Positions 37,359-60,388 of a stretch of DNA of 64,000 bases are shown one piece after another. This DNA is from Salinispora mooreana. Its GTDB lineage: Bacteria > Actinomycetota > Actinomycetes > Mycobacteriales > Micromonosporaceae. The DNA lies in contig NZ_KB900614.1 in the NCBI RefSeq assembly GCF_000379065.1, forward strand, positions 4,802,033-4,866,032, read 5' to 3'. Every line of letters starts with the position of its first letter. The first letter of the stretch is position 1. The notes below the pieces were generated by a model. That model worked only from the letters and a program-made list of their open reading frames with translations, ran no database searches and had not been told where the DNA came from. Position numbers and translations under genes: made by a program.

Positions 37359-38759
37359 GTGAACGGGAACCCCTCGTCCCGCGACTCCAATGCGATCGAT
37401 CCCGACTGGATAGACGAATTTCTGTTTACCGGCCGACCGGCCGACGTCTGCCTCCGGCTCCCCGACCCGGTTGACCAGGGCACTTTACACCGGCTGGTCA
37501 CCGAGGCGCAGACCCGCCTCGGCGCCGCTGGGCTGCGTCCCGGGGGTGCCGTCGCGCTCCGGCTGCCGCCGTCCCTGGCGTACGTGGTGAACCTACTCGC
37601 TACCTGGCGGAGCGGTGCCCAGGCCATCCTGCTGGACCATCGTCTCACCGACCACGAGGCCGACCGCGCGCTGCGGCGGCTCACCCCTCAGGTAGTCGTT
37701 GCGCCGGTCCGCACCGGTGGCACTGCACTACGCGTTTTCGTCGAGGTCACCGAGGGGGTCACTCCGTACGGCGACCGCCCGGCCGCCACCGACCACGCGG
37801 TGATCCAACTCAGCTCCGGCTCCACCGGACCCTCCAAGGTGATCGGTCGGACCGCCGCCGACCTGGTCGCTGAGGTGCGTCGCTACACCCAGCTCGACGG
37901 CGTCGCCCTACCCGGCGAACGACTCATCCTGCTGCCGTCCATGGTGCACGTGCTTGGCCTCGTCGGTGGCCTGCTCTATGGGCTGCACGCCGGCGTCGAA
38001 CTGGTCCCACCGGAACGACTCAGCGGCGCGGCGGTGCTCGATGCTATCGGCGCAGCCGACAGTCCGGCCACCGTCCTCGGCGTGCCATTCCACATCGGAC
38101 TCCTGGCCGCCACCCAGCTCGATCGGCCACTGCCCATGTTCACCCGGATGATCACTGGTGGGGAGCTGGTCTCGGCTGCCACGGCCCGCGCTTTCACCGA
38201 TCGGTTCGGCGTGCCACTCGGCAACATGTACGGGATGACCGAGGTCGGCGTCATCGGCACCGACCTGTATGGACGACACCGGCCAGGGATCATGCCCGCC
38301 CCCGGCATCGACGTCCGCGAGGTCGCCGGCGAGCTCCGGGTGAGCTGCCCCGCCTCCCCGTACCTCGGTGGCACCGATCCGTCCCGCTGGTCCGCCGGTT
38401 GGCTACACACCCGGGACGCGGGCACCGTGGACGCGGACAGCGGCCTGGTGACCATCCGCGGCCGGCTCGACTCCCAGGTCTCGGTCGGCGGGATGAAGGT
38501 CGATCTCACCGAGGTGGAGCACACGGTCGCCGAGTTGCCGGGGGTCGCCGCCGCCGTGGTGGTCTGGGACGACGGCATCACCGCGTACGTGCAGCCGGTG
38601 GGCGCCCTCGCCGAGGAGACCCTGGACCAGCAGCTCGCCGAGCGGCTGGCCAGCTACAAGCGGCCCCGTACCCTGCGGCTGCTCGACCGGCTGCCCCGCA
38701 CGACCACCGGCAAGCTGGTCCGTTCGGTGGAGACGCTGCGGACGGCAGGGACATCGTGA
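37359..38759 (+). CDS. Acyl-adenylating enzyme (AMP-dependent ligase) 1
   Basis: A 466-residue ANL-superfamily enzyme, shorter than most acyl-CoA ligases (500-550). The P-loop-like motif LSSGSTGPSKVIGRTAADL, the YGMTEVGVIGTDL motif, and the catalytic C-terminal Lys in RTTTGKLVRS are present. The substrate is unknown. Its shortness is mainly in the N-terminal domain, as in some stand-alone enzymes that load free ACPs. It begins the second block and converges on the PPTase gene with a 5-bp gap. A GTG start is used, with no clear RBS. Confidence 0.85.
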   Translation: MNGNPSSRDSNAIDPDWIDEFLFTGRPADVCLRLPDPVDQGTLHRLVTEAQTRLGAAGLRPGGAVALRLPPSLAYVVNLLATWRSGAQAILLDHRLTDHEADRALRRLTPQVVVAPVRTGGTALRVFVEVTEGVTPYGDRPAATDHAVIQLSSGSTGPSKVIGRTAADLVAEVRRYTQLDGVALPGERLILLPSMVHVLGLVGGLLYGLHAGVELVPPERLSGAAVLDAIGAADSPATVLGVPFHIGLLAATQLDRPLPMFTRMITGGELVSAATARAFTDRFGVPLGNMYGMTEVGVIGTDLYGRHRPGIMPAPGIDVREVAGELRVSCPASPYLGGTDPSRWSAGWLHTRDAGTVDADSGLVTIRGRLDSQVSVGGMKVDLTEVEHTVAELPGVAAAVVVWDDGITAYVQPVGALAEETLDQQLAERLASYKRPRTLRLLDRLPRTTTGKLVRSVETLRTAGTS

Positions 38760-38764
38760 CCGGG

Positions 38765-39382
38765 CTACTCCGCCTCTCCGACGACAACCATCTCAGCTTC
38801 GCCACCGACCACCGCTACCGCCAGGAGCAGCGTCCCGGGGCAGTGGGGATGGCCGACCCAGACATCGGTGACGGCTGGCACCGGGCGTATCCGTCCCGGG
38901 GCGGGGACGGGCATCTGACGGCGCGGACCTCCGGCGCGCAGACCGAGGCCGAGCGCCTTGCCGACGGCCTCCTTCGCGGTCCACAACCGCAGGAAGTCCC
39001 GACTCCGGCCCGCTTCCGCGCGGGCGGCGAGCCAGGCCACCTCGGCCGGGCTGTACCAGCGGCGGGCCAGGTCCAGCGCGGGCAGCTGGCGGCACCGCTC
39101 GACGTCCACCCCCACCGGCCCGCCGGTTCGGACGGCGACCACCGTCACGCCGCCGCCACGGCTCACACTCGCCGGCACGGTGACCTGGCCGTGGCCGGTG
39201 TCCCCGGTGACCAGCGCAGCCGCGCCGGGCCGGCGGGTCACCACGATGTCCGCCTCCGGACAGTCCAGCACTCCAGCGGCGGCCTGCCGCAACAGTCGCT
39301 CGGCTACGGCCGGCCGACCGCCATTGTCCCGACCAATCCACACGTAAACGGTGTCCCGACCCGACACCGGTGACAGGTTCAC
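38765..39382 (-). CDS. Sfp-type 4'-phosphopantetheinyl transferase
   Basis: A 205-residue PPTase that attaches the phosphopantetheine arm to carrier proteins. The two conserved motifs are visible: GPVGVDVERCR and RLWTAKEAVGKALGLGLR, with the Asp/Glu metal ligands. It lies antisense between ligase 1 and the ACP gene: its stop is 5 bp from the ligase stop and its GTG start is 15 bp from the ACP ATG. A leader for it or for the ACP gene can hardly fit, so their promoters must lie inside coding DNA. Likely partners are the ACP and ACP-like proteins next door. Confidence 0.9.
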   Translation of the reverse strand: MNLSPVSGRDTVYVWIGRDNGGRPAVAERLLRQAAAGVLDCPEADIVVTRRPGAAALVTGDTGHGQVTVPASVSRGGGVTVVAVRTGGPVGVDVERCRQLPALDLARRWYSPAEVAWLAARAEAGRSRDFLRLWTAKEAVGKALGLGLRAGGPRRQMPVPAPGRIRPVPAVTDVWVGHPHCPGTLLLAVAVVGGEAEMVVVGEAE

Positions 39383-39397
39383 GGAGAGAGGTTAACC

Positions 39398-39664
39398 ATG
39401 AGAGCCGAGGTCCGCGCCTTCGTCATCGAGCAACTCATCGACATGAACTACGACGTGGAGGAGGTCGACGACGAGTCCACTCTCGGGCCCGCGGGGGTGG
39501 ACCTGGAGTCCCTGGCCCTCGCCGACCTGGCTGTCCGGGTCGAGGACCGGTACGGGCTGACGTTCGCCGAGGAGGAGTCGGAGAAGCTGGCTCTGATGAC
39601 GGTGGGCGAGTTCACCACGATGGTCGCCAACCGGGTTGCCGGGGCGCCGAGCGACCGCTCCTGA
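39398..39664 (+). CDS. Acyl carrier protein
   Basis: An 88-residue acidic ACP. The attachment site is in GVDLESLALADLAVRVEDRY (Ser at DLESLAL), preceded by VDDESTLGPA, with helix III near EEESEKLALMTVGEF. An RBS (GGAGAGAGG) precedes the ATG. It starts the ACP/KS gene string and overlaps the ACP-like gene by one base. It is distinct from the PKS ACP at 32986, so this block has its own carrier. Confidence 0.92.
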   Translation: MRAEVRAFVIEQLIDMNYDVEEVDDESTLGPAGVDLESLALADLAVRVEDRYGLTFAEEESEKLALMTVGEFTTMVANRVAGAPSDRS

Positions 39665-39903
39665 TGGCCGGTCAGCCAGACCTGGGGCGAGGCGACCTGG
39701 TCGCCATGCTCGCCCAGCTCACCGACCGACCCACCGACCAGCCTGAGCGGATCGGCTCGATGGAGCTGGCCTGGCTGGTGCACCTGGTCGAGCAGCGCTA
39801 TGACCGGCGACTCGACCTCACCGACGACCAACTCGCCGGGATTCGTACCGTTGACGACGCACTGGTGGTCTTCCAGACGGCCCTGGTCGCCGCCGATGGT
39901 TGA
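39664..39903 (+). CDS. ACP-like protein
   Basis: A 79-residue protein with ACP-like helices but a divergent site: IGSMELAWLVHLVEQRYDRR, where the usual Asp before Ser is Gly. The Ser is kept, so modification is possible but not certain. The region after it (LDLTDDQLAGIRTVDDALV) matches ACP helices III/IV. It shares one base with the ACP stop (TGATG) and overlaps the KS gene by 8 nt. A paired ACP plus ACP-like protein beside several KS genes is a layout seen in aryl-polyene-like systems. Confidence 0.75.
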   Translation: MAGQPDLGRGDLVAMLAQLTDRPTDQPERIGSMELAWLVHLVEQRYDRRLDLTDDQLAGIRTVDDALVVFQTALVAADG

Positions 39904-40975
39904 GCCAGCCGATGTTCTCCTCACTGGTGTCCACGCGACCAGTGCACTCGGCCGGGGCGCCGAGGCGCAGCTGGCCGGGGCGCTTGCCGGAATCCCCGCG
40001 TTCCGGCCGGTTCGCCGGTTCGACGCCGGCCCCCGGCGGGTCAACGCGGCGGCCACCCTGCCGGATACCGGTCCGCTCACCGACGAACTGACCGAGGCGG
40101 TGCTGGCGGCGTGCCGGTCGGCGGGGCTCACCGCGTCGCATCGCGCTGAGGCGGCACTGCTGCTCGCGGTGCACGGCGGGAGGTCCGTGCCGGCATTGAG
40201 CGCTGGCCTCGCCGCGGCCACCGGCTTCCCCACCGTGCGCACGTACACCACGGCGTGTGTTTCGGGAACCAACGCGGTCGCCGACGCGGCGGTGTTGTTG
40301 CGTCGCGGCGAGGTCAACCGGGCCGTGGTCGCCGCCGGCTACCTGGTCGAGCCCGACCAGTACGCCCTCTTCGACGTCGGCCGGGCGCTCGCCACCGATG
40401 CGGCGGTGCGTCCGTTCAGCGCCGGGCGTACCGGCCTGCTGCTTGGCGACGGAGTGGCGGCGGTGGTGCTGGAACGCGCCGACATCGCCCGGCAACCGAT
40501 CGCCGCTCTGCTCGGCTGGGGACGGGCGGGTGACGCCTTCCACCCGTGCCAGCCGGAACCGAAGGGCCGTGGCCTGGCCCGGGCGATCACCGCCGCGCTG
40601 GGCCGTGCCGGCCGTGACCCAGCGGACATCGGTTACGTCAACGCCAATGCCACCGGGTCTGGACCGGGCGACGCGGCCGAGGCGGCGGCGCTGCGGACCG
40701 CGCTGGGCCCGACGGCCCAGCGGGTGCCGGTGAGCTCCACCAAGGCTCTGCATGGGCATGCCCTGGAGGCATCTGGCCTGCTGGAACTGGTGGTGACGGT
40801 GCTCGCGCTGCGGCGCGGCAAGCTGCCGGCGAACGCCGGCTGGCTCGGTCCGGACTCGGACTGCCCGCTCGATGTCATCCGGGACGGCCCCCGACCGGCG
40901 GCCACCGGCCACGCGCTCACCCTCAACGCCGCTTTCGGCGGCGCGAGCACCGCCCTGCTGCTGGGTGCCACGTGA
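39896..40975 (+). CDS. Divergent ketosynthase with altered catalytic triad
   Basis: A 359-residue KS, about 50 residues shorter than usual. The nucleophile is kept: Cys121 in YTTACVSGTNAVADAAV. The first catalytic His is replaced: the family motif NAHGTGT reads NANATGS (Asn251). The second His is present in TKALHGHALEASGLLE (His288). Loss of the first His predicts weakened decarboxylation, so this may be an initiating KS, an acyltransferase-like KS or a partner subunit for the canonical KS at 43100. It overlaps both neighbours. Confidence 0.82.
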   Translation: MVEPADVLLTGVHATSALGRGAEAQLAGALAGIPAFRPVRRFDAGPRRVNAAATLPDTGPLTDELTEAVLAACRSAGLTASHRAEAALLLAVHGGRSVPALSAGLAAATGFPTVRTYTTACVSGTNAVADAAVLLRRGEVNRAVVAAGYLVEPDQYALFDVGRALATDAAVRPFSAGRTGLLLGDGVAAVVLERADIARQPIAALLGWGRAGDAFHPCQPEPKGRGLARAITAALGRAGRDPADIGYVNANATGSGPGDAAEAAALRTALGPTAQRVPVSSTKALHGHALEASGLLELVVTVLALRRGKLPANAGWLGPDSDCPLDVIRDGPRPAATGHALTLNAAFGGASTALLLGAT

Positions 40976-41490
40976 CCGGGCGGGAGGGACCGACCGTTCG
41001 GGCCGAGGCGGCCTGGCCGGAGCCGGGCGACGGCGCGATACCACCGCTACCAGGATTCGTCCACTCGGCGTTCAACCCGCTGGTGGCGGCGGTAGCAGAT
41101 CGGTGCCTGCGCCGGGCGTACCGAGCCGGGCCGGCCGCCGACGCAGAGCGCACCGCGATCGTGCTGGTCAGCCCGACCGGCGACGAGGCCAGCGCGGCGC
41201 ACGTGCGGGCCGCGGTGGCCGCTGACCGTCGGCCGGGACCGCTGTTCTTCTTCCAGTCGGTGCCGAACAGCGTGGCCGGCCAGGTGGCCGCCCGCTGGGG
41301 GCTGGGTGGGCCGGTGGTCTGCCTCGCGCCGACCGGCGACCCGCGGGCGGCCGGGTTCGCCGAGGCCGACCTGTTGCTGTACGACGGCGACGCCGACGCG
41401 GTGTTGCTGATCCTGATCGACACGGCACCGGACGACGGTGATGCGGAGTCAGCCGTCGCCGTGCTGCTGGGGGGAGGAGACCAACCATGA
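40972..41490 (+). CDS. Beta-ketoacyl synthase N-terminal-like protein (KS stub)
   Basis: A 172-residue protein resembling the N-terminal half of KS enzymes as in the Ketoacyl-synt_2 family. Recognisable parts are PPLPGFVHSAFNPLVAAVAD, a conserved IVLVSPTGDEASAAHV and the FFFQSVPNSVAGQVAARWGL segment, which in full KSs precedes the active-site Cys. No Cys nucleophile or His motif follows, so it cannot condense by itself. It is flanked by GTGA/ATGA overlaps and probably works with the adjacent KS proteins. Similar stubs accompany aryl-polyene-type clusters. Confidence 0.7.
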   Translation: MTGREGPTVRAEAAWPEPGDGAIPPLPGFVHSAFNPLVAAVADRCLRRAYRAGPAADAERTAIVLVSPTGDEASAAHVRAAVAADRRPGPLFFFQSVPNSVAGQVAARWGLGGPVVCLAPTGDPRAAGFAEADLLLYDGDADAVLLILIDTAPDDGDAESAVAVLLGGGDQP

Positions 41491-43103
41491 GAGCCAGGGG
41501 AATCCGTGGGCTGCTCGCCGCCGACACCCACATTGGTGCCGGGAATGTGCTCGAGCGGGTGCTTGCGCATGGCACCGACCCGGACACGCTCTGCCTGACA
41601 TTCGACACACCACTGGACGGGCACCCCGCCGAGACGGCGCTCACGCTGGGACAGCTCGACCGCCGGGTGGCAGCCCGGGCCGCCTGGCTGCACGAACGGG
41701 GTATCGGCCCGCGTGATCCGGTGGCGGTCTGGGCCACCGCGGTCGCGGACATGGTGCTGAGCTACCTCGCGCTGACCCGGCTGGGCGCGATCCCGGCGTT
41801 GATGAACGGGCAGCTGCAGCCGACCATCGCCGCCGAGTACATCCGGCGGCTGCGTGGCGTCGCGGTGCTCGCCGACGAGGCACACCGCACGCTGCTCGCC
41901 GACCATGACCTTGGGGTCCCGGTGCTCGGCACCCCGGCCGAGGCCGGCAGCGGTGATCCGGCCTCGGCGCCAGCCCACTACCGGCACCACCCGGACGACC
42001 CGATCGTGATCACCCACACGTCCGGCACCACCGGAGTGCCGAAGGCGGTGCTGCACTCGCACGCCAGCCTCTTCGCGGCGACCCGGCACCTGCTGAGCAT
42101 GCCGCAGGCGCAGGGCACCAGCCGGATCCTGAGTGCCTTGCCCGCCCCACACACCGCCACCGTGCTCATGGTCAACCAGGTGCTCGGTAACGGCGCGGAG
42201 ATGCTGCTCCTCTCCGAACAAGGTGGAGAACGGGTTCTCGACGCCATCCAGGGCTGGCGACCGGACGGGGTGTTCGGCTTCTCGGTCACCTGGGCCGAGC
42301 TGGCCCGGTGCGACCTGGCCGGGTACGACCTGAACTCGGTACGGCTGTGGTTCAACACCGGCGACTCGTCGCACGAGCCACACATCCGGCACCTGGTGGC
42401 GGCCGGTTCCCGGGACGTGATGACCCGTACGGGGGTCACCCGGGTGCCGGGCTCGGTGTTCATCGACGGTCTCGGCTCCTCCGAGATGGGACACTCGATG
42501 TTCCACATCACCCACACCCAGGAGACCGACCGGTACGGACGGTGTATCGGCCGGCCGTACCAATTCACGAAGGTAGCCGTGTTGGATGCGGCGGGCGAGC
42601 CGGTGCCCACGGGCGAGGCCGGCTGGTTGGGCATCGACTCGCCGTCGCTGTTTCGCGGCTACTGGAACGACTCGGTCACCACCCACCGTTACCGTCAGCG
42701 CGGCTGGTACCTGACCGGGGACCTGGTCTACGCCGACGCCGACGGCTGGTACTACCACCTGGACCGGGCGGTTGACTCGGTTGACTCGGTCGACGGGAAG
42801 CGCTTCTATACCGCGCTTTCCGAGGAACGGATCCTCGCCGCCTGCCCCGATGTCACCGACTGCACGGTGGTCATGGTGCGCCAGCCGGCCGGTGTCGTCA
42901 CCGACGTGCTGCTGGAACTGGCCGCCGACGCGGACGAGAGCACGGACCGCACCGCGGCGGTTCGGGCGGCGCTGGGCGGGGAGGTCGGGGCGACCCTACG
43001 GCGGGTGGTCCCGGTCCGTTCCGCCGACATCCCGGTCACGGTGACGGGCAAGGTCCGCAAGGTGGCGCTGCGGGAACGCTACCTGAGCGAGGCGTCCCGA
43101 TGA
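41487..43103 (+). CDS. Acyl-adenylating enzyme (AMP-dependent ligase) 2
   Basis: A 538-residue ANL enzyme. ITHTSGTTGVPKAVLHSHAS is the nucleotide-binding motif; the YLTGDLVYADADGWYYHLDR motif and the C-terminal Lys in VTVTGKVRKVALRERYL are typical of acyl-CoA/acyl-ACP ligases. A short direct repeat encodes DSVDSVDGK near residue 430, in the flexible hinge before the C-terminal domain. Overlaps by ATGA with the KS stub and the next KS. It may activate a starter such as a 4-hydroxyphenyl acid for the ACP, but the pocket residues were not analysed. Confidence 0.88.
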   Translation: MRARGIRGLLAADTHIGAGNVLERVLAHGTDPDTLCLTFDTPLDGHPAETALTLGQLDRRVAARAAWLHERGIGPRDPVAVWATAVADMVLSYLALTRLGAIPALMNGQLQPTIAAEYIRRLRGVAVLADEAHRTLLADHDLGVPVLGTPAEAGSGDPASAPAHYRHHPDDPIVITHTSGTTGVPKAVLHSHASLFAATRHLLSMPQAQGTSRILSALPAPHTATVLMVNQVLGNGAEMLLLSEQGGERVLDAIQGWRPDGVFGFSVTWAELARCDLAGYDLNSVRLWFNTGDSSHEPHIRHLVAAGSRDVMTRTGVTRVPGSVFIDGLGSSEMGHSMFHITHTQETDRYGRCIGRPYQFTKVAVLDAAGEPVPTGEAGWLGIDSPSLFRGYWNDSVTTHRYRQRGWYLTGDLVYADADGWYYHLDRAVDSVDSVDGKRFYTALSEERILAACPDVTDCTVVMVRQPAGVVTDVLLELAADADESTDRTAAVRAALGGEVGATLRRVVPVRSADIPVTVTGKVRKVALRERYLSEASR

Positions 43104-44344
43104 CGGCGGTCATCACCGGGATGGGGTTGTACACCCCGGTGGGCCGGGGTGTCGAGGCCACCTTTGCGGCGCTGTGCACCGGCCGTTCCGGGCTGGCCCG
43201 TCCGCCGGCCGACCACCCCGCCGCCGAAACCCTGGAGGTCGCCGGGGTGCTGCCGGCGATCGACCCGCGGTCGGTCTCGTCCGGCCCGGACACCAAGGTC
43301 CTGGACCGGATCGTGCTGCTCGCCCTGCTCACCGCCGCGGATGCCCTCGCCGATGCCGGCCTTGAGGTGGGCCGGGACGTCGCCCCGGAGCGGACGGCGG
43401 TCATCGTCGGCGGGGTCGGTGGGCTGGCCACCCTGGAGACGCAGGTGCTCACCCGAGCGGCTCGGGGGCGAGCGGGAGTCAGCCCGTACCTACTTACCGG
43501 GGTGCTGCCGAACATGCCGTCGGCCCGGATCGCGATCCGGCACGGCATCCGAGGATACAGCTCCTCGGTCGGCACCGCCTGCGCCTCCGGTGTCCAGGCG
43601 GTCGCCGACGCGGTGCGGCTGATCCAGGCCGGCGAGGCCGACGTGGTGCTCTGCGGAGCCAGCGAGGCACCGCTCTTCCCCACCTTCGCCGACACCTTCG
43701 GTAACGCCCGGGCTCTTGCCCGCGGGTGGGCCGACCCGACCGCGGCCAGCCGACCGTTCGACCTCCGCCGGAACGGTTTCGTGCTCGCCGAAGGAGCGGT
43801 GTTGTTGGTGCTGGAGAGCGCCGCACACGCCGCGGCCCGGGGCGCTACCGGGTACGCGGAGATCGCCGGGTACGGCGTAACGACCGATGCCTACCATCCG
43901 ACCGCACCCCGGCCCGACGGTAGCGGCGCGGCGGAGTCTATCCGGCGGGCGCTCACCGGCCGCCGCATGCCGGTGCCGGTGGCCGAAGTCGGCTACGTCA
44001 ACGCGCACGGCACCGGGACCAAACTCGGCGACATCGCCGAGACCACGGCACTCACCGAGGTCTTCGGCGCGAATGGGGTACCGGTCAGCTCCACCAAGGC
44101 GCTCACCGGCCACCTGCTCGGGGCCTCCGGAGTGCTGGAGACGGCGGCGACCGCCCTGGCACTCGGGCGGGGCCTGCTTCCACCGACCTGGAACCTCGAC
44201 GACCCGGACCCGGCATGCCCGGCTGATCACATCCGGAAGGAGCCCCGGGCGACCGAGACCGGCTATGCGCTGACCAACTCCTTTGGTTTCGGGGGGCAGA
44301 ACGTGAGCCTGCTGCTCGCGCGAGCCACCCGGCCGCGGACTTGA
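43100..44344 (+). CDS. Beta-ketoacyl-ACP synthase (canonical)
   Basis: A 414-residue FabF-like KS with a full triad: Cys161 in VGTACASGVQAVADAV, His in YVNAHGTGTKLGDIAE, and His in TKALTGHLLGASGVLE. FabF-like loop [20 protein letters not shown] is present. It is the only clearly complete condensing enzyme of this block. No ketoreductase or dehydratase gene is in the window, so products would stay at the beta-keto stage unless outside enzymes help. It ends 68 bp before HmaS, with a small hairpin between. Confidence 0.92.
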   Translation: MTAVITGMGLYTPVGRGVEATFAALCTGRSGLARPPADHPAAETLEVAGVLPAIDPRSVSSGPDTKVLDRIVLLALLTAADALADAGLEVGRDVAPERTAVIVGGVGGLATLETQVLTRAARGRAGVSPYLLTGVLPNMPSARIAIRHGIRGYSSSVGTACASGVQAVADAVRLIQAGEADVVLCGASEAPLFPTFADTFGNARALARGWADPTAASRPFDLRRNGFVLAEGAVLLVLESAAHAAARGATGYAEIAGYGVTTDAYHPTAPRPDGSGAAESIRRALTGRRMPVPVAEVGYVNAHGTGTKLGDIAETTALTEVFGANGVPVSSTKALTGHLLGASGVLETAATALALGRGLLPPTWNLDDPDPACPADHIRKEPRATETGYALTNSFGFGGQNVSLLLARATRPRT

Positions 44345-44412: not shown

Positions 44413-45510
44413 ATGGACATCCGTGGAATAGATCACATCGAACTCTATGTAGACGATGCCCACCAGGCCGCCGCGTACTTCGGCAACGCGGTGGGGCTGC
44501 GGCCGTGCAGCCAGGGTGGCCCGGAGACCGGGCTGACCGGGCAGCGGTCGCTGCTGCTCCGGCACGCCGACATCCGGTTGCTGCTCACCTCCGGGCTGAC
44601 CGCCGAGCATCCGGCGGCGGAGTATGTGCGGCGGCACGGCGACGGTATCGCCGTGGTCGCGCTGGCGGTTGACGACGCCGCCGAGGCGTACGCCGAACTG
44701 CTGGCCCGGGGCGCGGTTGGTGAGCTGCCGCCGACCACCATCACCAGCGCGGACGCCGAGGTCGTCATCGCCGAGGTGGCGGGTTTCGCCGATGTGCGGC
44801 ACCGGTTGGTCGAGCGCCGTCGAGGCGGCGGTGACTTCCTGCCGGGCCTGGCGGAGCTACCGCCGGTCGGTGCCGCCGAGAACCTGCTCGTCGAGATCGA
44901 CCATCTGGCGGTGTGCGTGCCGCCCGGGCAGCTCGCCGAGACGGTCCGCGGCTACCGAGAGGTCTTCGGCTTCGACGAAATCTTCCACGAGTACGTGGAG
45001 GTAGACGGCCAGGCGGTGAACTCCACCGTGGTGCAGAGCCGGTCTGGTCGCGCGACGTTGGTGCTGCTCGAACCGGACACCCGCCGGCGGGCTGGGCAGA
45101 TCGACGCCTTTCTCGCCGAGCACTCCGGTGCGGGCGTGCAACACATCGGGTTGCGGACCGACGACATCATTGCGGCGATCCGCGCGCTGCGCCAGCGCGG
45201 GGTGCGATTCGCGCACACCCCGGCGGCCTACTACGACGACCTGGAGAGCCGGGTCGGCCAGATCAACGGGTCTGTGGACCAGTTGCGGGAATTCGAGGTG
45301 CTGGTTGACCGGGACCACGACGGTCAACTGCTGCAGATCTTCACGGAGTCGATGCACGTACGCCGCACGTTCTTCCTGGAGCTGATCGAGCGGCGTGGGG
45401 CGCGGACCTTCGGTAGCGGCAACATCAAGGCGCTCTATGAGGCCAAGGAGCGGGAATTGGCGGTGGCCTCCCCCGGAGGTTTTGCCGTCACTCAGGAGGT
45501 GACAGGATGA
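44413..45510 (+). CDS. hmaS: 4-Hydroxymandelate synthase (HPPD superfamily)
   Basis: A 365-residue Fe(II) dioxygenase of the HPPD fold, converting 4-hydroxyphenylpyruvate. Metal ligands are His in EIDHLAVCV (~163), His in GVQHIGLRT (~243) and Glu in FFLELIERRGARTFGSGNIK (~322). The active-site strand reads NSTVVQSRSGRATLVLLEPD, like HmaS of glycopeptide clusters (STVVQS...LTLIEPD), rather than the SxVMxS...INEP of true HPPDs. That indicates oxidation at the benzylic carbon to give 4-hydroxymandelate. The presence of Hmo and HpgT downstream fits. The RBS is weak, and the stop overlaps the PhyH gene. Confidence 0.85.
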   Translation: MDIRGIDHIELYVDDAHQAAAYFGNAVGLRPCSQGGPETGLTGQRSLLLRHADIRLLLTSGLTAEHPAAEYVRRHGDGIAVVALAVDDAAEAYAELLARGAVGELPPTTITSADAEVVIAEVAGFADVRHRLVERRRGGGDFLPGLAELPPVGAAENLLVEIDHLAVCVPPGQLAETVRGYREVFGFDEIFHEYVEVDGQAVNSTVVQSRSGRATLVLLEPDTRRRAGQIDAFLAEHSGAGVQHIGLRTDDIIAAIRALRQRGVRFAHTPAAYYDDLESRVGQINGSVDQLREFEVLVDRDHDGQLLQIFTESMHVRRTFFLELIERRGARTFGSGNIKALYEAKERELAVASPGGFAVTQEVTG

Positions 45511-51342: not shown

Positions 51343-52581
51343 CTAAGCGGAAATCCGTCCTTGGTCCGCGGTATCGACCAACGGTGTCTCCGTCCGCGTC
51401 CGGCGTAGGACGGCGGCCAGGGGAACAGCGGTGGCGGTGAAGATGAACAGGGCCGCGGCCAGTAGTGCGGACTTGAGGCCGAGCGTGGTGACGGACGCGC
51501 CACCGAGCAGGGCACCCAGGGGTAGGCCGGCGAAGGCAAGCGCACCGGCCAGCCCAATCACCCGGGCCTGAAGTTCGACCGGGGGACGCTCGTAGAGCGC
51601 GACCCCGAGCAGTGGGTTGACCACGGCGATGCCGATTCCAGAAACGAAGGTAACCACGAGCACCACCGTGAGGTTGTCGGTGAGGGCCAGGACCAGAAGT
51701 CGGGGTGGGCCACTGACCGCGGCGCCGATCGCGAAGGTCAGGTCCCGGCGAAGCCGCGAGCCGAAGCTGGTGAACAGCACGTTGCCCAGCAGGGACCCGG
51801 CGGTGAAGGCACCGAGCACCAGCCCCAGCCCGGCCGGGTTACCGAACACGTCGGCCACCCAGAGTGGGATGTAGACCGCGATACTCGCGTTTACCACCAT
51901 GTTCAGTGCGGAGATCACCAGCAGCATGGTGAGCACCGTCCGGTCCTGCCGGAGATACCGGAGGCCGCCGGCGAGTGCCCGCGAATAGCGTTCCGGCGTC
52001 GAACTGGTCGGCCTACCGGTGCTACGACGCACCAGAGTGGAAATCAGTAGCGCGCAGACCGCGAAGGTCGCCGCGTCAACGAGAATCGCCAGGGTAGCTC
52101 CGAGCCACCAGATGAGCAGGCCGCCAACGCTCGCCCCGAGTAGGGTTGTCAGCCGGGACAGCCCGTCGTAGATCGAGGTGAGCCGGATCAACCGGACCCC
52201 GGCAGCTTCCGCGGCCGGGCGGAACATCACGTGCTTGACCCGGTCGCCGACTCCGCGCAGCGTGCCCACCAGGGCCACCAGGATCAGCAGCGCGCCGAAG
52301 CCGAGCCACGGGGTGAGCGCCACCGCCACCATCAGCGCGGCGCTACCCAGGTCGCCGAGGATCGAGGTGCGGCGTAGCCCGATCCGGTCGGCCAGCGGGG
52401 GGCCGAGCCCGCTGGAGAGCAGGTAAGGCAGGGTCTCGGCGGCGGCGACCAGCCCCATCTTCGCCGGGCTGCCGGTGGTCTCCAGCACCAGCCAGGGAAT
52501 GGCGAGGATCGAGATTCGGCTACCGAGGTTGGACAGCAGGTCGGCGCCGACGAGTGCGACCAGTTCTCGCCGTGGGGTCAC
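51343..52581 (-). CDS. MFS transporter (likely exporter)
   Basis: A 412-residue protein with about 12 hydrophobic segments (for example IAVVNPLLGVALYERPP between helices and FAGLPLGALLGGASVTTLGL), with the DRIGLRR segment typical of the loop 2-3 motif in MFS proteins. It lacks sugar-specific motifs and looks like a drug/secondary-metabolite exporter. GTG start overlaps the stop of ligase 3. A natural role is export of the product of this region, perhaps together with the SGNH hydrolase downstream. Confidence 0.88.
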   Translation of the reverse strand: MTPRRELVALVGADLLSNLGSRISILAIPWLVLETTGSPAKMGLVAAAETLPYLLSSGLGPPLADRIGLRRTSILGDLGSAALMVAVALTPWLGFGALLILVALVGTLRGVGDRVKHVMFRPAAEAAGVRLIRLTSIYDGLSRLTTLLGASVGGLLIWWLGATLAILVDAATFAVCALLISTLVRRSTGRPTSSTPERYSRALAGGLRYLRQDRTVLTMLLVISALNMVVNASIAVYIPLWVADVFGNPAGLGLVLGAFTAGSLLGNVLFTSFGSRLRRDLTFAIGAAVSGPPRLLVLALTDNLTVVLVVTFVSGIGIAVVNPLLGVALYERPPVELQARVIGLAGALAFAGLPLGALLGGASVTTLGLKSALLAAALFIFTATAVPLAAVLRRTRTETPLVDTADQGRISA

Positions 52582-54143
52582 GCGCGACGGCCGATCGATG
52601 CCTCCGGGTACTCCGCGGCCGACGGGTGGCTCGTCGCGTACCGTGCCCGCAGGGCACGTTTGTCGACCTTGTTGGCGCGGTTCAGGGGCAGTGCGGCGAC
52701 GAACTCCACCCCGCCGGGTGCCCAGGTGTCGCTGAGCGCGGCGGTCACCACGTCGATCAGCTCCGCGCTGGTCACCGCCGCACCGGGCCTCGGCACCACG
52801 TAGGCGTACGGCAGTTCGCCCGCCACCTCGTCAGGCACGCCGATCACCGCCGCCGCCCGGACGTCGGGATGCCCCGCCAGCGCGTCCTCAATCGGCCGGG
52901 AGTAGATCGGCCAGCTACGCCGGCGGGTGAGGATCCGGTCCTGCAACCGGTCGACCAGGTACAGGTAGCCATCCACGTCGAGGTGGCCAACATCTCGGGT
53001 GCGGACCCAACCATCCGCCAGGGTCTCTGCCGTCAGATCAGGGTTGCCGTAGTAGCCGGCGAAGCGCAGCGCCGTCTGTACCCAGACCTCACCGTCCACA
53101 TCCGGCGGAAGGACAGCCCCGTCCGCTCCGCGGATCTCGATTCGCACGTCGCCGTACGGCTGTCCACAGGAGCGCAGACGCTCCGGGTGCGCCGGGTCCT
53201 CGGTCAGGCCCGGTTGCGCGGTGACCACCACCGCCTCACTGAGCCCGTACACGATGCGCAGCACCGGACCGAACCGAGTGATCGCCTGGCGCAGCCGGGC
53301 GGGTGCGGCGGGCCCGGCGCCCACGTTGAACATGAACATCGAGGAGAAGTCGACCCCGGGTAGGGCGGGGTGATCGAGCACCTCGTAGAGCATCGGCGGG
53401 GTCAGAAAGGTGGAGGTGATCCGCTCGGCCGGCACGGTCTGGATGAACTCCGTCGCGTCCCAGCCCTCTCGGGGAAAGAGCACGCCGCCGGTGAAGAGAT
53501 TGAACAGGGTGGTGATCTGACCACTGGCCAGCCACATGGGGGAGTAGGACAGGTGCCGCAGCAGCGGCATCCCGGCGGCGCGGAAGCCGGTGGCCAGGGC
53601 GAGAACCTGGGCATAGAAGCTCTCCTGGTGCCGCACCAGCTTCGGGGTGCCGGTGGTGCCGGAGGTCTGCAGGAGGGAGTCCGCTGCCGGCACCGGGGTG
53701 GGTAGGTCAACAGCGGCCGGCGCGGGGACCAGGTCCACGCCGAGGCGGAGCACCGGCCGGTCACCCATCCCCGCCGCCAGCTCTGCACCGACGTTGGCCG
53801 GGTCGCGAGCGTCGTAGAGCAGGGCGTCCGGCTGGGCGAGTGCGACGAATTCCGTGATCTCCCGGCGGGAGGTCACCGGAGCGATCCACATAGTTCGGCA
53901 GCCAAGCAGGTGCAGTGCGAGCTGTAGCAGCGGGCCCTCCACCGGATTTCCGAGCGACAACAGCACCGCGGCACCGGGTCGAACCCCGTGGCGGAGCAGC
54001 GTCGTGGCGAATCCGCATACCTGGGCGCGCACGTCGGTATAGGTCAGCCGTCGTGCGCCGTCGACGATTGCCTCGCGGTCACCGAACTCGGCGAAGAGTG
54101 CCAATGCCTGGTGCACGTAGCCCGGCTGCGGTCGGTCGGCCAT
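52578..54143 (-). CDS. Acyl-adenylating enzyme (AMP-dependent ligase) 3
   Basis: An ANL enzyme of ~521 residues. The motif LLQTSGTTGTPKLVRHQESF binds ATP, YGLSEAVVVTAQPGLTED follows, and the C-terminal PLNRANKVDKRALRARYATS carries the catalytic Lys, although the Gly that usually precedes it is Asn. The ATG at 54143 has a GGGGG run upstream; an ATG at 54161 adds six residues. It starts the minus-strand operon and diverges from the secreted esterase gene over ~270 bp. It may activate an amino or hydroxy acid for the nearby ACP, but the substrate is unknown. Confidence 0.85.
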   Translation of the reverse strand: MADRPQPGYVHQALALFAEFGDREAIVDGARRLTYTDVRAQVCGFATTLLRHGVRPGAAVLLSLGNPVEGPLLQLALHLLGCRTMWIAPVTSRREITEFVALAQPDALLYDARDPANVGAELAAGMGDRPVLRLGVDLVPAPAAVDLPTPVPAADSLLQTSGTTGTPKLVRHQESFYAQVLALATGFRAAGMPLLRHLSYSPMWLASGQITTLFNLFTGGVLFPREGWDATEFIQTVPAERITSTFLTPPMLYEVLDHPALPGVDFSSMFMFNVGAGPAAPARLRQAITRFGPVLRIVYGLSEAVVVTAQPGLTEDPAHPERLRSCGQPYGDVRIEIRGADGAVLPPDVDGEVWVQTALRFAGYYGNPDLTAETLADGWVRTRDVGHLDVDGYLYLVDRLQDRILTRRRSWPIYSRPIEDALAGHPDVRAAAVIGVPDEVAGELPYAYVVPRPGAAVTSAELIDVVTAALSDTWAPGGVEFVAALPLNRANKVDKRALRARYATSHPSAAEYPEASIGRRA

Positions 54144-54414
54144 CCGGACGCCCCCATCCATGGCAGCGGTGTACCCGGGGTTGCCCGGGCACGGTGCGGG
54201 CCGCGGGCGACCGCGCCACCACCTGTGAGCCTAGGGCAGACAACGGAAATGAACACGAGCCGAAGGTGGCCCTCGGCCAGGCCAGCAGGACAGTTGATCA
54301 CGTCGATCAGGTTGATTGACGCCCCCGCACGGCGACGGTTACGTTCCGCAGCACGCCCAGGTGAGCGCCGGCAGTGGCCGGGACGGAGGCTGGGCTGCCT
54401 ACAATGGAGGTTCA

Positions 54415-55713
54415 ATGTCGACCCCGAAGAGATGGCATATCGTGGCGGGTGCCGCAGCGCTACTCATGCTGGGTACTCCCAGCGTGGTGGCGACCGCGGA
54501 TCCGTCGGCCGAGGTGTCAAGGCATCGCAAGACAACCTGGGCCGCGAGTTGGGCGACCGCGGTGGCCGGGGGCAATGCGAGCGGCCCGACCAACGCGGGC
54601 TTTGAGAACCAGACGATCCGGAACATCGTGCACACCACCGTGGGTGGGTCGGTGCTGCGGGTCCGACTCAGCAACATGTACGGCGAGCAGGACATCCAGG
54701 TCGGTCGGGCGACGATCGCCCGACCGGACGAGACGACCCCCGACGATCTGTCCGACATTGACCCGAGTACGCTGCGGAAGCTGACGTTCGGTGGGTCAAC
54801 CTCGGCGACGATGAACCAGGGCGCCGAGCTGATCAGCGACCCGGTCGATTTCCCGATCGGTGACCAGCAGGACCTGGTGGTCACGGTCTACTACCCGGCC
54901 CCGACCGGCCTGGTGACCTTCCACGGCATGTCCCGCCAGACGAGCTTCATCGGCGATGGTGATCTCGCCTCGGATGCCGGTGCCGGCCTGGGAAGGCTCT
55001 CGGACTGCTGCTGGTTGTTCCTGTCCGGCATCGATGTGCAGCGCCATAAGAGCCCCGGCTCGGTGGTGGTGTTCGGTGACTCGATCGCCGAGGGTAGCGG
55101 CAGCACGCTCAACGCCAACAAGCGCTGGCCGGATCTGCTGGCCGACCGGTACATCGATGCCCGTCCGGATTCTCGGACCCCGGCCGTGCTCAACATGAGT
55201 CTCGCCGGGAACCGGCTCAACCACGAGGGTACGGAGCCGGGGGCAGGCGGCTTTCCCGGCTACAACGAGTTGGGGCCGAACGCGCTCGCCCGGCTCGACG
55301 AGGACATCTTCGCCCAGAACGGTGCCCGGGCCGTGATCACACACCTGGGTATCAACGACATCTGGATGTCCGACGACTCCGCCGAGGCGATCATTACCTC
55401 GCTCCGGCAGGTCAACCAGCAGGTCAAGGCACGTGGTCTGCGCAGCCTGGTGGGCACGTTGACGCCGTACGAGGGTCACGGCGAGCCGGGTGTGTGGACG
55501 CCGGAGAAGGAGGCGACCCGGCAGGCGGTGAACGAGTATCTGCGCACCAGTAAGGAGTTCGACGGAGTCGTCGACTTCGATCGGGTGCTGCGCGACCCGG
55601 AGCAGCCCAGCCGCTTGTTGCCGGCATACGACTCGGGGGATCACCTTCACCCGAACGACGCCGGCAGCGAGGCAATGGCCGGCGCGGTGTCGTTGCGCCT
55701 GCTCGGTCTGTGA
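54415..55713 (+). CDS. Secreted SGNH/GDSL-type esterase
   Basis: A 432-residue exported protein. The signal peptide runs through WHIVAGAAALLMLGTPSVVA. The SGNH blocks are VVVFGDSIAEGSGSTLNANK (Ser), SLAGNRLNHEGTEPG (Gly/Asn), HLGINDIWMSDDSAEAI (Asn) and DSGDHLHPNDAGSEAMAGAV (Asp/His). An N-terminal beta-rich domain of about 150 residues precedes the catalytic one, as in actinomycete extracellular lipases/esterases of this family. RBS GGAGG lies 5 nt before the ATG. It may be unrelated to the biosynthetic genes around it. Confidence 0.9.
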   Translation: MSTPKRWHIVAGAAALLMLGTPSVVATADPSAEVSRHRKTTWAASWATAVAGGNASGPTNAGFENQTIRNIVHTTVGGSVLRVRLSNMYGEQDIQVGRATIARPDETTPDDLSDIDPSTLRKLTFGGSTSATMNQGAELISDPVDFPIGDQQDLVVTVYYPAPTGLVTFHGMSRQTSFIGDGDLASDAGAGLGRLSDCCWLFLSGIDVQRHKSPGSVVVFGDSIAEGSGSTLNANKRWPDLLADRYIDARPDSRTPAVLNMSLAGNRLNHEGTEPGAGGFPGYNELGPNALARLDEDIFAQNGARAVITHLGINDIWMSDDSAEAIITSLRQVNQQVKARGLRSLVGTLTPYEGHGEPGVWTPEKEATRQAVNEYLRTSKEFDGVVDFDRVLRDPEQPSRLLPAYDSGDHLHPNDAGSEAMAGAVSLRLLGL

Positions 55714-55717
55714 CATC

Positions 55718-57028: not shown

Positions 57029-57970
57029 GTGACCCTGCATCCTGAGGCTGAGGCGTACCGGGCGAGCCGTGCGGCGGCCGGCACCCCACCGCTGTACACG
57101 CAGACCCTCGCCGAGGCCCGTGCGGCCGACCTCGCCGCGATCCTGGCCGGCTCCGGCCCGGTCGAGCCGGTCCACGAGGTACGCGACACCTGTGTCCCCG
57201 GCCCAGCCGGTGACATTCCGGTCCGGGTGTACCGTCCGGCCGCAACCGGGCCGCTGCCGACACTGCTCTACTTCTTCGGCGGTGGGTGGACGCTGGGTAG
57301 CATCGACACCGCGGACGGGGTCTGCCGGCGACTGGCCAATGCGGTGCCCTGCCAGGTGATCACTGTCGGCTATCGGCTTGCTCCCGAGCACCCGTTCCCC
57401 GCGGCCGTGCACGACTGCCACGCTGCCCTGCGCCATGTCGCGGTGCATCCAGCGGAGTTCGGCGCAGATCCGGAGCGGCTCGCGGTGGCCGGGGACAGCG
57501 CGGGTGGCAACCTGGCCGCAGCGGTCACGTTGCTGGCGCAGCAGGACGGTCCCCGGCTGGCTGCGCAGCTGTTGGTCTATCCGAACACCGACCAGACGAT
57601 CGAGCCGCCCGGTGACGAGGACCCGCTGCTGTTCAACCGCCGCTCGGTCGCCTGGTACCGGTCCCACTACCTGGCCGACCCGACCGACGCCCAACACCCA
57701 CTCGCGTCGCCGCTACTCGCCGACGACCTGACCGGTCTGCCGCCGGCGTTCGTGGTTACCGCCGAGTTCGACCCGCTCTGTGCCGAGGGCGAACGATACG
57801 CCGACCGGCTTCGCCTCGCCGGCGTACAGACGATCCTCACCCGGTACGCGGGCATGGTCCACGGCTTCTTCACCATGCCCGGCATCTTCGATGCGGGCCG
57901 GCAGGCTCAGGCAGCGGCCGCGACCTTCCTGCGCCGCCGCCTCCGTCGGACCGCGGCCGACGATGACTGA
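57029..57970 (+). CDS. Alpha/beta hydrolase of the hormone-sensitive lipase family
   Basis: A 313-residue hydrolase. The nucleophile is Ser in AVAGDSAGGNLAAAVTLLAQ, the acid in TAEFDPLCAEGERYADRL and the His in MVHGFFTMPGIF. The oxyanion motif reads FFGGGWTLGS, with Phe in place of the usual His of HGGG. The GTG start lies 30 bp after the P450 stop. It might remove a protecting acyl group or release the product of this cluster; the preference is unknown. The stop overlaps Hmo by 8 nt. Confidence 0.88.
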   Translation: MTLHPEAEAYRASRAAAGTPPLYTQTLAEARAADLAAILAGSGPVEPVHEVRDTCVPGPAGDIPVRVYRPAATGPLPTLLYFFGGGWTLGSIDTADGVCRRLANAVPCQVITVGYRLAPEHPFPAAVHDCHAALRHVAVHPAEFGADPERLAVAGDSAGGNLAAAVTLLAQQDGPRLAAQLLVYPNTDQTIEPPGDEDPLLFNRRSVAWYRSHYLADPTDAQHPLASPLLADDLTGLPPAFVVTAEFDPLCAEGERYADRLRLAGVQTILTRYAGMVHGFFTMPGIFDAGRQAQAAAATFLRRRLRRTAADDD

Positions 57971-59072
57971 GCCCCCGGTCGCGCTGCCCGGCGGGCCGCC
58001 GGTGGCACTGGCCGACTTCGCCGACCTCGCCCGCGCGGTACTACCGCCGGAGGTGTGGGACTTCGTGGCCGGTGGCAGCGGCGCCGAGACGACGCTGGCA
58101 GAGAATCGGCGGGCCCTGGACCGGACCGGCGTGCTGCCCCGCGTGCTGTGCGGTTCGCCGACGCCGCCGACCGACGCCCGGCTGTTGGGGGCCGCCCATG
58201 CGCTGCCGGTGGCGGTCGCGCCGATGGCGTATCAGCGGCTGTTGCACCCCGACGGGGAGGTGGCCCTCGCCGCGGCGGCGGGCGCGGCCGGCATCCCGTA
58301 TGTGGCCAGCACGCTCGGCAGCATCCCGATCGAACAGGTCGCGCGAGCCGGCGGCGACGTGTGGTTCCAGCTCTACTGGCTGCGGGACCGAGGGCTCGTC
58401 GCCGATCTGCTGGACCGAGCCGAAGCGGCGGGCTGCACCGCGTTGATGCTCACCGTGGACGTGCCAATTCTCGGCCGTCGGCTGCGGGACGTGCGCAACT
58501 CGTTCGCCATTCCCGCGGATGTGGTCGCCGCGAACCTACCCACCGGCCGGGACAGTCTCGCCCATAGGGCGACCCCGGGCGTGTCCGCGGTCGCCGCACA
58601 CACCGGTGCGGTCTTCGCGCCGGCCGTGAGCTGGGACGACCTGGAGTGGCTGCGGGAGCGGACAGCGGTCCCGCTGGTCGTCAAAGGGGTGCTCGATCCG
58701 GATGATGCCGCCCGCGCGGTGGCGGTCGGAGCAGACGCGGTGGTGGTCTCCAACCACGGGGGACGCCAGCTTGACGGCGCACCGGCCACCGCGACCGCGC
58801 TGCCCGCGGTCGTTGACGCGGTGGGTGACAACGGTGAGGTGTTGTTGGACAGCGGTGTCCGCGGTGGAGTGGACGTGCTGCGGGCCCTTGCCCTCGGCGC
58901 GCAGGGCGTCCTGGTGGGCCGCCCGCTGCTCTGGGCGTTGGCGGCCGGTGGCCGGGCCGGTGCCGAGACAGCCCTGTCGCTGCTGGCCGCAGAGTTTCAG
59001 GACGCGCTCACGTTGGCGGGGTGCGCCGACGTGGCGGCGGCACGGCACCTGCGGACGACGACGGTGCAGTGA
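57963..59072 (+). CDS. hmo: 4-Hydroxymandelate oxidase (FMN-dependent)
   Basis: A 369-residue FMN alpha-hydroxy-acid oxidase. The N-terminal FAD/FMN-family block is VAVAPMAYQRLLHPDGEVAL, catalytic His in VVVSNHGGRQLDGAPATATA (~264), and the phosphate-binding C-terminal stretch SGVRGGVDVLRALALGAQGV. It oxidises 4-hydroxymandelate, the HmaS product, to 4-hydroxybenzoylformate. Related lactate/glycolate oxidases are possible, but the neighbours HpgT and the distant HmaS (44413) give the assignment. Overlaps the hydrolase gene and HpgT (GTGA). Confidence 0.88.
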   Translation: MTEPPVALPGGPPVALADFADLARAVLPPEVWDFVAGGSGAETTLAENRRALDRTGVLPRVLCGSPTPPTDARLLGAAHALPVAVAPMAYQRLLHPDGEVALAAAAGAAGIPYVASTLGSIPIEQVARAGGDVWFQLYWLRDRGLVADLLDRAEAAGCTALMLTVDVPILGRRLRDVRNSFAIPADVVAANLPTGRDSLAHRATPGVSAVAAHTGAVFAPAVSWDDLEWLRERTAVPLVVKGVLDPDDAARAVAVGADAVVVSNHGGRQLDGAPATATALPAVVDAVGDNGEVLLDSGVRGGVDVLRALALGAQGVLVGRPLLWALAAGGRAGAETALSLLAAEFQDALTLAGCADVAAARHLRTTTVQ

Positions 59073-60388
59073 TCGTGAAAATACAGCTTGCCGACCTGCA
59101 TCCGGCGCTCGAGGATCCGGCCCTGAACTCGATGAACTTCCTCAACGAAGTGGCGCAGGAATACCCGGACGCGGTGTCGCTCGCCGCCGGCCGGCCGTAC
59201 GAGGAGTTCTTCGAGTTCTCCGCGCTGCACCGATACCTGGACATCTTTCGGCAGCACCTGGTCGATGATCTCGGGCAGGACCCGGTGCAGGTGAATCGCA
59301 CCCTGTTCCAGTACGGGCGGACCAAGGGGATCGTGCACCACCTGGTCGCCCGGAACCTCGAGGTGGACGAGGGGATAGCGGTCGACCCGGAGGCGATCGT
59401 GGTGACCGTCGGGTGCCAGGAGGCGATGTTCCTGGTGCTGCGGGCGCTGCGCGCCGGTCCCCGGGATGTCCTGCTCGCGGCGGCGCCGACCTATGTGGGG
59501 CTCACCGGCGCAGCACGGCTGCTGGACTTCCCGGTCCGCCCGGTGGCGACGACGGACTCCGGGGTGGACCTGGCGGACCTGCGTGATCAGGTGCATCGGG
59601 CTCGGGCCGAGGGGCTGCGCCCGCGTGCCTGCTATCTGATGCCGGACTTTGCCAATCCGTCGGGTACCAGCATGTCGTTGGCCGACCGGCGGACCCTGCT
59701 GGACCTGGCCGCCGAGGAGGAGTTGCTGCTGATCGAGGACAACCCGTACGGACTCTTCCCGGCCACGGAGAGTCGGCGGCTGCCCACGTTGAAGGCCTTG
59801 GACACCAACAGTCACGTGGTCTACCTGGGGTCGTTCGCGAAGACGGTGCTGCCCGGCGCACGGGTTGGCTATGTGGTGGCCGACCAGTCGGTGGCGGATG
59901 CCGGTGGGGGGAGAGGTCTCCTCGCCGACCAGCTGGCCAAGGTCAAGAGCATGGTCTCGGTGAACACCTCGCCGGTGGCCCAGGCGGTGGTCGGCGGTGT
60001 GTTACTCGCCCACGACTGCAGCCTGGTGGCGGCCACGGTCCGACAGCGCACCGTCTACGCCGACAACCTGCGTTACCTGGTGCACGGCTTGGCTCGTCGG
60101 TTCCCGGCCGGCTCGTCGGTACGGTGGACGGTGCCCGCCGGCGGGTTCTTCGTGGTGGTCACCCTGCCGTTTCCGGTGGACGACGCGCTGCTGCACCGCT
60201 CCGCCCGGGAATACGGGGTGCTGTGGACCCCGATGGCGCATTTCTACGGCGACGGTGTGCCGGTGCACGCGCTGCGGTTGTCGGTCAGCGCGGTCACCCG
60301 GGACGACATCGACCGCGGGCTGGGTCGGCTCGCCGCGTTCGTCGCCGGCGAGGTGGCGCGGCGGGAACCGGGACCGGGGGTGCGCTGA
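59069..60388 (+). CDS. hpgT: 4-Hydroxyphenylglycine aminotransferase
   Basis: A 439-residue PLP enzyme of the class I/II aminotransferases. The Schiff-base Lys is in VVYLGSFAKTVLPGARVGYV (~257), with VEDNPYG-like IEDNPYGLF and PDFANPSGTSMSLADRRTLL typical of the HpgT/KAT group. It converts 4-hydroxybenzoylformate to L-4-hydroxyphenylglycine, in glycopeptide pathways using Tyr as donor, which regenerates the HmaS substrate. The GTG start overlaps hmo; a second GTG lies 6 nt later. HmaS, Hmo and HpgT together complete an Hpg pathway. Confidence 0.9.
   Translation: MIVKIQLADLHPALEDPALNSMNFLNEVAQEYPDAVSLAAGRPYEEFFEFSALHRYLDIFRQHLVDDLGQDPVQVNRTLFQYGRTKGIVHHLVARNLEVDEGIAVDPEAIVVTVGCQEAMFLVLRALRAGPRDVLLAAAPTYVGLTGAARLLDFPVRPVATTDSGVDLADLRDQVHRARAEGLRPRACYLMPDFANPSGTSMSLADRRTLLDLAAEEELLLIEDNPYGLFPATESRRLPTLKALDTNSHVVYLGSFAKTVLPGARVGYVVADQSVADAGGGRGLLADQLAKVKSMVSVNTSPVAQAVVGGVLLAHDCSLVAATVRQRTVYADNLRYLVHGLARRFPAGSSVRWTVPAGGFFVVVTLPFPVDDALLHRSAREYGVLWTPMAHFYGDGVPVHALRLSVSAVTRDDIDRGLGRLAAFVAGEVARREPGPGVR

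Follow-up and report, generated by a model that had tools for sequence, protein, structure and literature searches.

Glycopeptides, ramoplanin and nocardicin are examples of compounds that nonribosomal peptide synthetases (NRPSs) make with 4-hydroxyphenylglycine (Hpg) as a building block. The locus described here resembles glycopeptide-type NRPS clusters in that it contains, by homology, the same genes HmaS, Hmo and HpgT. It is located in a stretch of 64,000 nucleotides from Salinispora mooreana (C1:4802033-4866032 of a 5.2 Mb genome), which we refer to at its full length as the window. In contrast to glycopeptide-type clusters, the window lacks an NRPS, the trio is split over two modules and stands beside ketosynthases, ANL adenylating ligases, a pair of E1 subunits and an ATP-grasp ligase, and this type of cluster is also present in a genome without a condensation-domain match.

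Three other described systems share single parts with the locus. Aryl-polyene systems have two acyl carrier proteins (ACPs) and a second ketosynthase (KS) as parallels to the window, and the short KS partner of the window, KSG, is closest in its structure model to ApeC of the ApeO-ApeC pair (6qsp_B), but no ketoreductase (KR) or dehydratase (DH) domain was found among the cluster genes scanned. The KS-CYF type II polyketide synthase (PKS) AmcF-AmcG of cispentacin has in common with the window a KS with a short partner resembling a chain length factor (CLF), an ACP and an ANL ligase. The window proteins score below the cut-offs of the respective models, however, and the window differs by two ACPs, an extra KS and the Hpg genes, with no hotdog-fold domain seen among the cluster genes scanned. 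One study describes KSs with such short CLF-like partners as a subfamily found in more than 100 diverse clusters (PMC10698177). Finally, the predicted model of the ATP-grasp ligase matches eukaryotic-type glutathione and glutathionylspermidine synthetases over its whole length, while the better matches share 13-15% identity with it and the gene sits in an Hpg cluster.

The orphan pks3 cluster of Salinispora tropica CNB-440 is probably the same locus. It was suggested to make a spore-pigment polyketide, with the product unconfirmed (PMC7888443); the present comparison separates the Hpg cluster from the spore-pigment PKS. Among the open-access papers listed in literature searches, no title or abstract described an NRPS-free Hpg cluster. 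The locus appears to combine known kinds of natural-product cluster in a new variant, and Hpg use without an NRPS is strongly supported by comparative evidence. We consider it rather likely that the genes form a dedicated, NRPS-independent two-module Hpg cluster in which the ATP-grasp ligase would form an amide between Hpg and a KS-made or ligase-activated acyl unit. With slightly better than even chances, the product has been kept across much of the genus and Hpg is incorporated wholly without an NRPS, the ATP-grasp ligase coupling it with an acyl unit that a miniature KS/CLF-like system provides, which would make this the first dedicated NRPS-free Hpg pathway.

The Hpg trio and the probable use of Hpg without an NRPS

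An earlier note, made from the letters of the window, had named HmaS and Hmo as two enzymes of a complete Hpg pathway, and both names hold. HmaS, the putative 4-hydroxymandelate synthase (44413..45510, + strand), is named in NCBIfam solely by TIGR01263 ‘4HPPD’ (324 bits, cut-off 277). Its solved relatives are nearly tied, with 2r5v PCZA361.1 (E 5e-82) followed by the HPPD-labelled 7yvv (4.7e-81) and 3zgj (1.5e-77) and next by the HPPD 1t47 (E 1.9e-65); we take PCZA361.1 and 3zgj to be 4-hydroxymandelate synthases. A second trio, in another genome (G239), has an HmaS with 46.6% identity to that of the window, compared to 39.3% for the separate HPPD of the host genome, which lies at C1:4353226 and scores 433 bits. 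The HPPD motif PxNEP is present in this HPPD and occurs in none of the 25 HmaS orthologues, all of which carry L[LI]EP[DE] at that position, likewise 2r5v (LIEPD). The contrast in identity together with the motif comparison decides for HmaS rather than HPPD.

The top solved relatives of Hmo (57963..59072, +) are 4-hydroxymandelate oxidases (5zzp, E 1e-109). HpgT, the putative 4-hydroxyphenylglycine transaminase (59069..60388, +), was recognized as a class I/II aminotransferase adjoining Hmo. Its name is taken from context, including the diverged HmaS-Hmo-HpgT trio in G239, because the libraries used have no HpgT reference model, and HpgT should be seen as a plausible but less firmly named transaminase than Hmo. 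HpgT homologues of 46-65% identity among the matches listed were treated as other paralogues and dropped. As judged by homology, gene order and co-occurrence, the three enzymes would convert 4-hydroxyphenylpyruvate via 4-hydroxymandelate and 4-hydroxybenzoylformate to Hpg. Supply of Hpg by the trio is well supported.

To relate the trio to possible NRPS partners we used a family sample of 300 genomes, 66 of which contain an ATP-grasp orthologue (at least 57% identity) and are called core genomes. The host genome (G000) has 13 condensation domains, none of them inside the window, which bears out the statement that no NRPS module is found there. Condensation domains occur in 65 of the 66 core genomes. 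The exception, G215, gave no condensation-domain match even at E<=10, and it contains every gene of both modules with no internal stops in an assembly of 10 contigs that is rated 100% complete. By motif reading, its single strong adenylation (A) domain has no Hpg code. The same holds for the three strong A domains of G162, a single contig that has the cluster, and for 9 of the 10 strong A domains of the host genome, where L162 and two masked partial domains were not readable. These readings are based on motifs and on Hpg A-domain codes.

An Hpg-specific A domain elsewhere, which had been named as a refutation of the proposed pathway, was accordingly not seen in the inspected strong A domains (9/10 in G000, 3/3 in G162, 1/1 in G215). 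This bears on the idea that the trio feeds Hpg to an unlinked NRPS in the manner of glycopeptide clusters, the KS, ligase and ATP-grasp block being an unrelated neighbour. Such a division of labor could draw on the condensation domains present somewhere in nearly all core genomes, and on G239, where a separate locus starting with an A domain carries a trio. It is refuted for G215, however, unless the assembly misses an NRPS, it finds no Hpg-type code among the A domains just named, and it does not account for the damage to module B in the three genomes that keep B without A. We regard it as quite improbable. NRPS-independent use of Hpg, as postulated earlier, is well supported by the genome comparison, with the argument being strongest for G215. 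A conserved Hpg cluster that is complete in a species without a detectable condensation domain would point to another way of using Hpg, and G215 and G239 make this claim directly testable.

Conservation and distribution of the two modules

Gene calling and family searches gave, from left to right, a whiE-like PKS, module A (37359-50558), a GDSL hydrolase and module B (51343-60388). Module A extends from ligA to the ATP-grasp gene and includes HmaS; module B extends from the gene of a major facilitator superfamily (MFS) protein to HpgT and includes Hmo. A comparison with related Micromonosporaceae genomes had been suggested before and turned out in favor of a coherent cluster: 12 core genes follow one another in the same order in every one of the 24 core genomes read, which is far above chance expectation. 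Among these 24, the GDSL/SGNH hydrolase gene (50606..51310, − strand; PF13472) was found in 23, a DUF3050 gene in 21, and a phosphopantetheinyl transferase (PPTase) gene in 17 by tblastn; 22 have module B at a distance of no more than 20 kb. Module B is further off or on another contig in G231 and G287, and that of G114 lacks the P450 gene.

HpgT of at least 73% identity, the cut used for its orthologues, is present in 65 of the 66 core genomes; G153 has only residues 3-231, at a contig end. It is located on the same contig as the ATP-grasp gene in 59 genomes (57 within 20.5 kb, one at 38.5 kb and one at 922 kb) and on another contig in six. At four of the distant or other-contig sites (G213, G231, G287, G156) the genes of module B have nearly their full length. 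This co-occurrence, unlinked genomes included, supports the view that the trio belongs with the KS, ligase and ATP-grasp block.

HpgT at this cut was found without the core in three genomes only; in each of them HpgT is cut short and further module-B genes are truncated or absent. In two genomes, G225 (L159) and G237 (L158), module A is gone, the whiE-type KS is followed within a few kb by remains of module B, and HpgT and ligC are truncated; this is likely a record of stepwise loss. A search for ligB at E<=1e-60 came back empty in 23 of 23 tested genomes that lack the ATP-grasp gene. A negative of this kind has little force by itself, but the gene was detected in 24 of 24 core genomes.

In the cluster of G239, HmaS and HpgT are gone together with residues 1-273 of PhyH, Hmo is kept, and the other matched reading frames are open; a PPTase was not detected. 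Its second, diverged trio lies in locus L156 (6079-11328), which begins with an A domain, and is 47, 61 and 64% identical to HmaS, Hmo and HpgT of the window. This fits a supply in trans, though the cluster may instead be in early decay. We further report that the second trio adjoins an ACP-like protein and a flavoprotein resembling a halogenase, as judged by eye.

A pattern-limited scan of species genomes found the ATP-grasp gene at 51 loci, 5 in Salinispora and 46 in Micromonospora, and one genome of the family sample from another genus (G114) carries it as well. The closest cluster is that of G181 (2.78-2.81 Mb). The cluster is kept across much of Micromonospora, a genus taken here to include Salinispora. 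Many species of this well-studied, drug-producing genus probably make a product that has yet to be seen. Distant ATP-grasp homologues (24 rows at 25-32% identity) were left out of the co-occurrence count; stretches of 20 kb around 7 of the 24 contained weak MFS, carboxylase or regulator similarities and no other cluster gene. One distant homologue (28% identity) is a second copy in G181, at 514-534 kb (L067), with no other cluster gene within the 20 kb read.

The proposed acyl synthase, the ATP-grasp ligase and the proposed pathway

Module A opens with ligA (37359..38759, +), an ANL adenylating ligase of 466 amino acids (PF00501; synteny 24/24). Antisense to the operon, between ligA and ACP1, lies a gene for an Sfp-type 4'-phosphopantetheinyl transferase, the PPTase mentioned above (38765..39382, −; PF01648, E 2e-16), with WTAKEAVGK conserved in 18 of 18 rows including the window; it was overlooked in the earlier note. 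The ACP pair reported there was recovered. ACP1 (39398..39664, +) matches PF00550 below the gathering score (E 0.0025), ACP2 (39664..39903, +) has no Pfam match and was assigned by size and operon position, and both carry a serine motif conserved in 25 of 25 orthologues (GVDLESLAL and GSMEL, respectively). A KS and a short CLF-like partner, KSF (39896..40975, +) and KSG (40972..41490, +), are encoded side by side. They are followed by ligB (41487..43103, +), an ANL ligase with AvaA6 as nearest family (NF058622, 481.6 bits, below the cut-off of 975), and by KS3 (43100..44344, +), a FabF-like KS which, according to family searches and alignment, has the normal Cys-His-His residues.

Of the three KS-type proteins proposed before, all were found, with the reservation that KSG (172 amino acids) is a truncated partner subunit and not a complete KS. 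In KSF the first catalytic histidine is replaced by asparagine in 25 of 25 aligned orthologues (NANATG), and the second is retained in all 25. The AlphaFold2 (AF2) model of KSG has a pLDDT of 74.6, and its top Foldseek match is ApeC (6qsp_B; E 7.9e-7, TM 0.56). A search for KSG across the phylum (396 genomes) returned true orthologues only in G000 and G003; matches in 12 other genomes were weak (E 1e-7 to 1e-4), belonged to frames of 422-724 amino acids and were dropped.

The relation to AmcF and AmcG raises the possibility that KSF-KSG act in a similar way, forming a five-membered carbocycle from a 2-oxo acid and malonyl, so that a cyclopentenone acid would be joined to Hpg by the ATP-grasp enzyme or ligC. 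The AmcG model NF058659 is the sole NCBIfam model matched by all 21 KSG orthologues, the AmcF model covers almost the whole length of KSF, and AmcG-type genes are reported from over 100 diverse clusters (PMC10698177). On the other hand, the scores are far under the curated cut-offs (30 versus 80 bits for KSG, 143 versus 325 bits for KSF), KSF lacks the first active-site histidine, a hotdog-fold domain was not seen among the genes scanned, and in structure KSG matches ApeC best. We therefore consider carbocycle formation unlikely.

All three adenylating ligases claimed for the window were found, the third being ligC of module B, a FadD-like ANL ligase according to family searches (52578..54161, −). 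By motif reading, ligA, ligB and ligC lack the NRPS-like FDxS aspartate after the A3 motif, and a role of these ANL ligases as Hpg activators was rejected on this basis.

Downstream of HmaS and two oxygenase genes the reported E1 pair was recovered, a thiamine diphosphate-dependent 2-oxoacid dehydrogenase E1 alpha (47249..48220, +; PF00676) and E1 beta (48221..49186, +; PF02779/PF02780), both in 24 of 24 genomes. The earlier proposal had left the choice between Hpg and 4-hydroxybenzoylformate as the unit. In the latter case the E1 pair would decarboxylate 4-hydroxybenzoylformate to a 4-hydroxybenzoyl starter for the KSs. This is consistent with the joint presence of HmaS and Hmo, with an E1 family that accepts 2-oxo acids and no E2 or E3 gene seen beside the pair, and with the resemblance of KSG to ApeC of aryl-polyene synthases. 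HpgT would then be needless, but 65 of the 66 core genomes retain it, even unlinked, and G239 misses HmaS and HpgT while Hmo stays. Because HpgT is retained almost without exception, Hpg is favored as the building block, and 4-hydroxybenzoylformate seems a doubtful candidate.

Module A ends with the ATP-grasp ligase (49191..50558, +), as noted before. It matches PF14403 weakly, below the cut-off, and has no sequence match in the Protein Data Bank (PDB). The fold predicted by AF2 (pLDDT 79.8) resembles that of (homo)glutathione synthetase over the full length (Foldseek match 3kal; E 1.2e-14, TM 0.60, 496 columns). The motif VEYNIDSS is present in 25 of 25 orthologues and is similar to the EINTISAS motif of the glutathione synthetase family.

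We propose that Hpg from the trio meets a separate acyl unit, which may be made or activated by a small type II acyl synthase consisting of KSF-KSG, KS3, the two ACPs with their own PPTase, and ligA/ligB. A 2-oxo acid may yield an acyl group through the E1 pair, and reductive steps could be provided by primary fatty-acid synthesis. The ATP-grasp ligase would form the amide with Hpg and thereby replace an NRPS. The product could then be tailored by the three oxygenases, which match the number given earlier: a PhyH-type Fe(II)/2-oxoglutarate oxygenase (45507..46436, +; PF05721; nearest solved SnoK 5epa, E 2.2e-10; WHFDKH in 25/25), a haem-oxygenase-like DUF3050 protein (46440..47252, +; PF11251, E 3.2e-96; solved relative 9vwb) and a cytochrome P450 (55772..56998, +; PF00067). 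A predicted MFS exporter (51343..52581, −; PF07690) may export it. The DUF3050 gene was not found in G114, G287 and G162, where PhyH is kept, and this loss in 3 of 24 clusters suggests an optional tailoring step. A role of the haem-oxygenase-like protein and PhyH in a nitro-cyclopropane of the belactosin/hormaomycin type was considered and dropped, as the solved relative 9vwb is a DUF3050 protein of unstated role, the DUF3050 gene can be missing while PhyH stays, and a review on HDO enzymes, which is not among the papers that name DUF3050, gave no lead on other terms.

Several points weigh against this proposal. Everything downstream of Hpg, including the coupling step and the product, is inferred, and ligC as an ANL enzyme could form the amide instead of the ATP-grasp ligase. 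No KR, DH or enoylreductase (ER) domain is found among the cluster genes scanned with Pfam, so that chain extension is uncertain. The structure models of the ATP-grasp ligase and KSG are of moderate confidence, with a best TM of about 0.6, and HpgT takes its name from context. Since 65 of the 66 core genomes hold condensation domains, the strongest argument rests on one assembly of 10 contigs; the reading of Hpg codes is motif-based, and some A domains of the host are unreadable. PhyH is lost as well in G239, so the cluster there may simply be decaying. The core is also not universal, with at least 23 genomes of the same genus lacking it.

The adjacent spore-pigment PKS and other neighboring genes

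Directly upstream of ligA lies a whiE-like spore-pigment type II PKS that brings its own genes for acetyl-CoA carboxylase (28959..37002, +), assigned by Pfam and NCBIfam, which had been overlooked so that the Hpg cluster was not separated from it. All on the + strand, its genes encode a TcmI-type cyclase (28959), a fused AccD/A (29288), a biotin carboxyl carrier protein (BCCP; 30985), AccC (31613), an ACP-cyclase fusion (32986), a cupin (33698), KS-alpha (34128), a CLF (35396) and an ABM monooxygenase (36640).

One could suppose that the whole region serves one pathway and that Hpg is attached to the whiE-type aromatic polyketide. The PKS is located directly upstream of ligA in 22 of the 24 core genomes read, and in G231 the whiE-type KS lies about 23 kb upstream of the ATP-grasp gene. 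A type II PKS shared by all S. arenicola strains is regarded in the literature as the cluster for the black spore pigment (PMC12838356), and the suggestion for pks3 is similar (PMC7888443). Against this, whiE-type KS-alpha was found in 20 of 20 genomes tested (79-89% identity), including 18 of 18 without the Hpg core, where it is kept at 85-89%, and in G114 it is about 650 kb apart from the core. Because the KS persists in the core-less genomes, the PKS is taken as a separate pathway, and a joint product is very improbable. The aromatic PKS and the Hpg cluster are, as judged from this comparison, usually neighbors that belong to different pathways. What had provisionally been classed as a spore-pigment PKS region holds two that can be separated. 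The tested Micromonospora genomes, with the exception of M. cremea, are reported to have whiE genes (PMC5765111).

For pks3, proteomics detected 18 of 25 proteins (PMC7888443). Compared to rich broth, photosynthate medium raised the levels of one ketoacyl synthase and two acyl ligases, and seawater medium had a similar effect. By their accession order, these three proteins would fit ligB, KSF and ligA.

The remaining genes of module B encode an SGNH hydrolase with a signal-peptide-like N-terminus (54415..55713, +; PF13472) and an esterase of the hormone-sensitive-lipase type (57029..57970, +; PF07859, NF058653). An open reading frame antisense to the former (54796-55716) has no family match and a lower GC content at third codon positions (GC3). 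Further upstream in the window, a lower-GC stretch (21568-24809) encodes two proteins with repeat or beta-helix matches, a Chlam_PMP repeat on the − strand and Beta_helix on the + strand, and the − strand at 18329-20737 encodes a protein that combines an adenylate/guanylate cyclase domain with an AAA ATPase domain.

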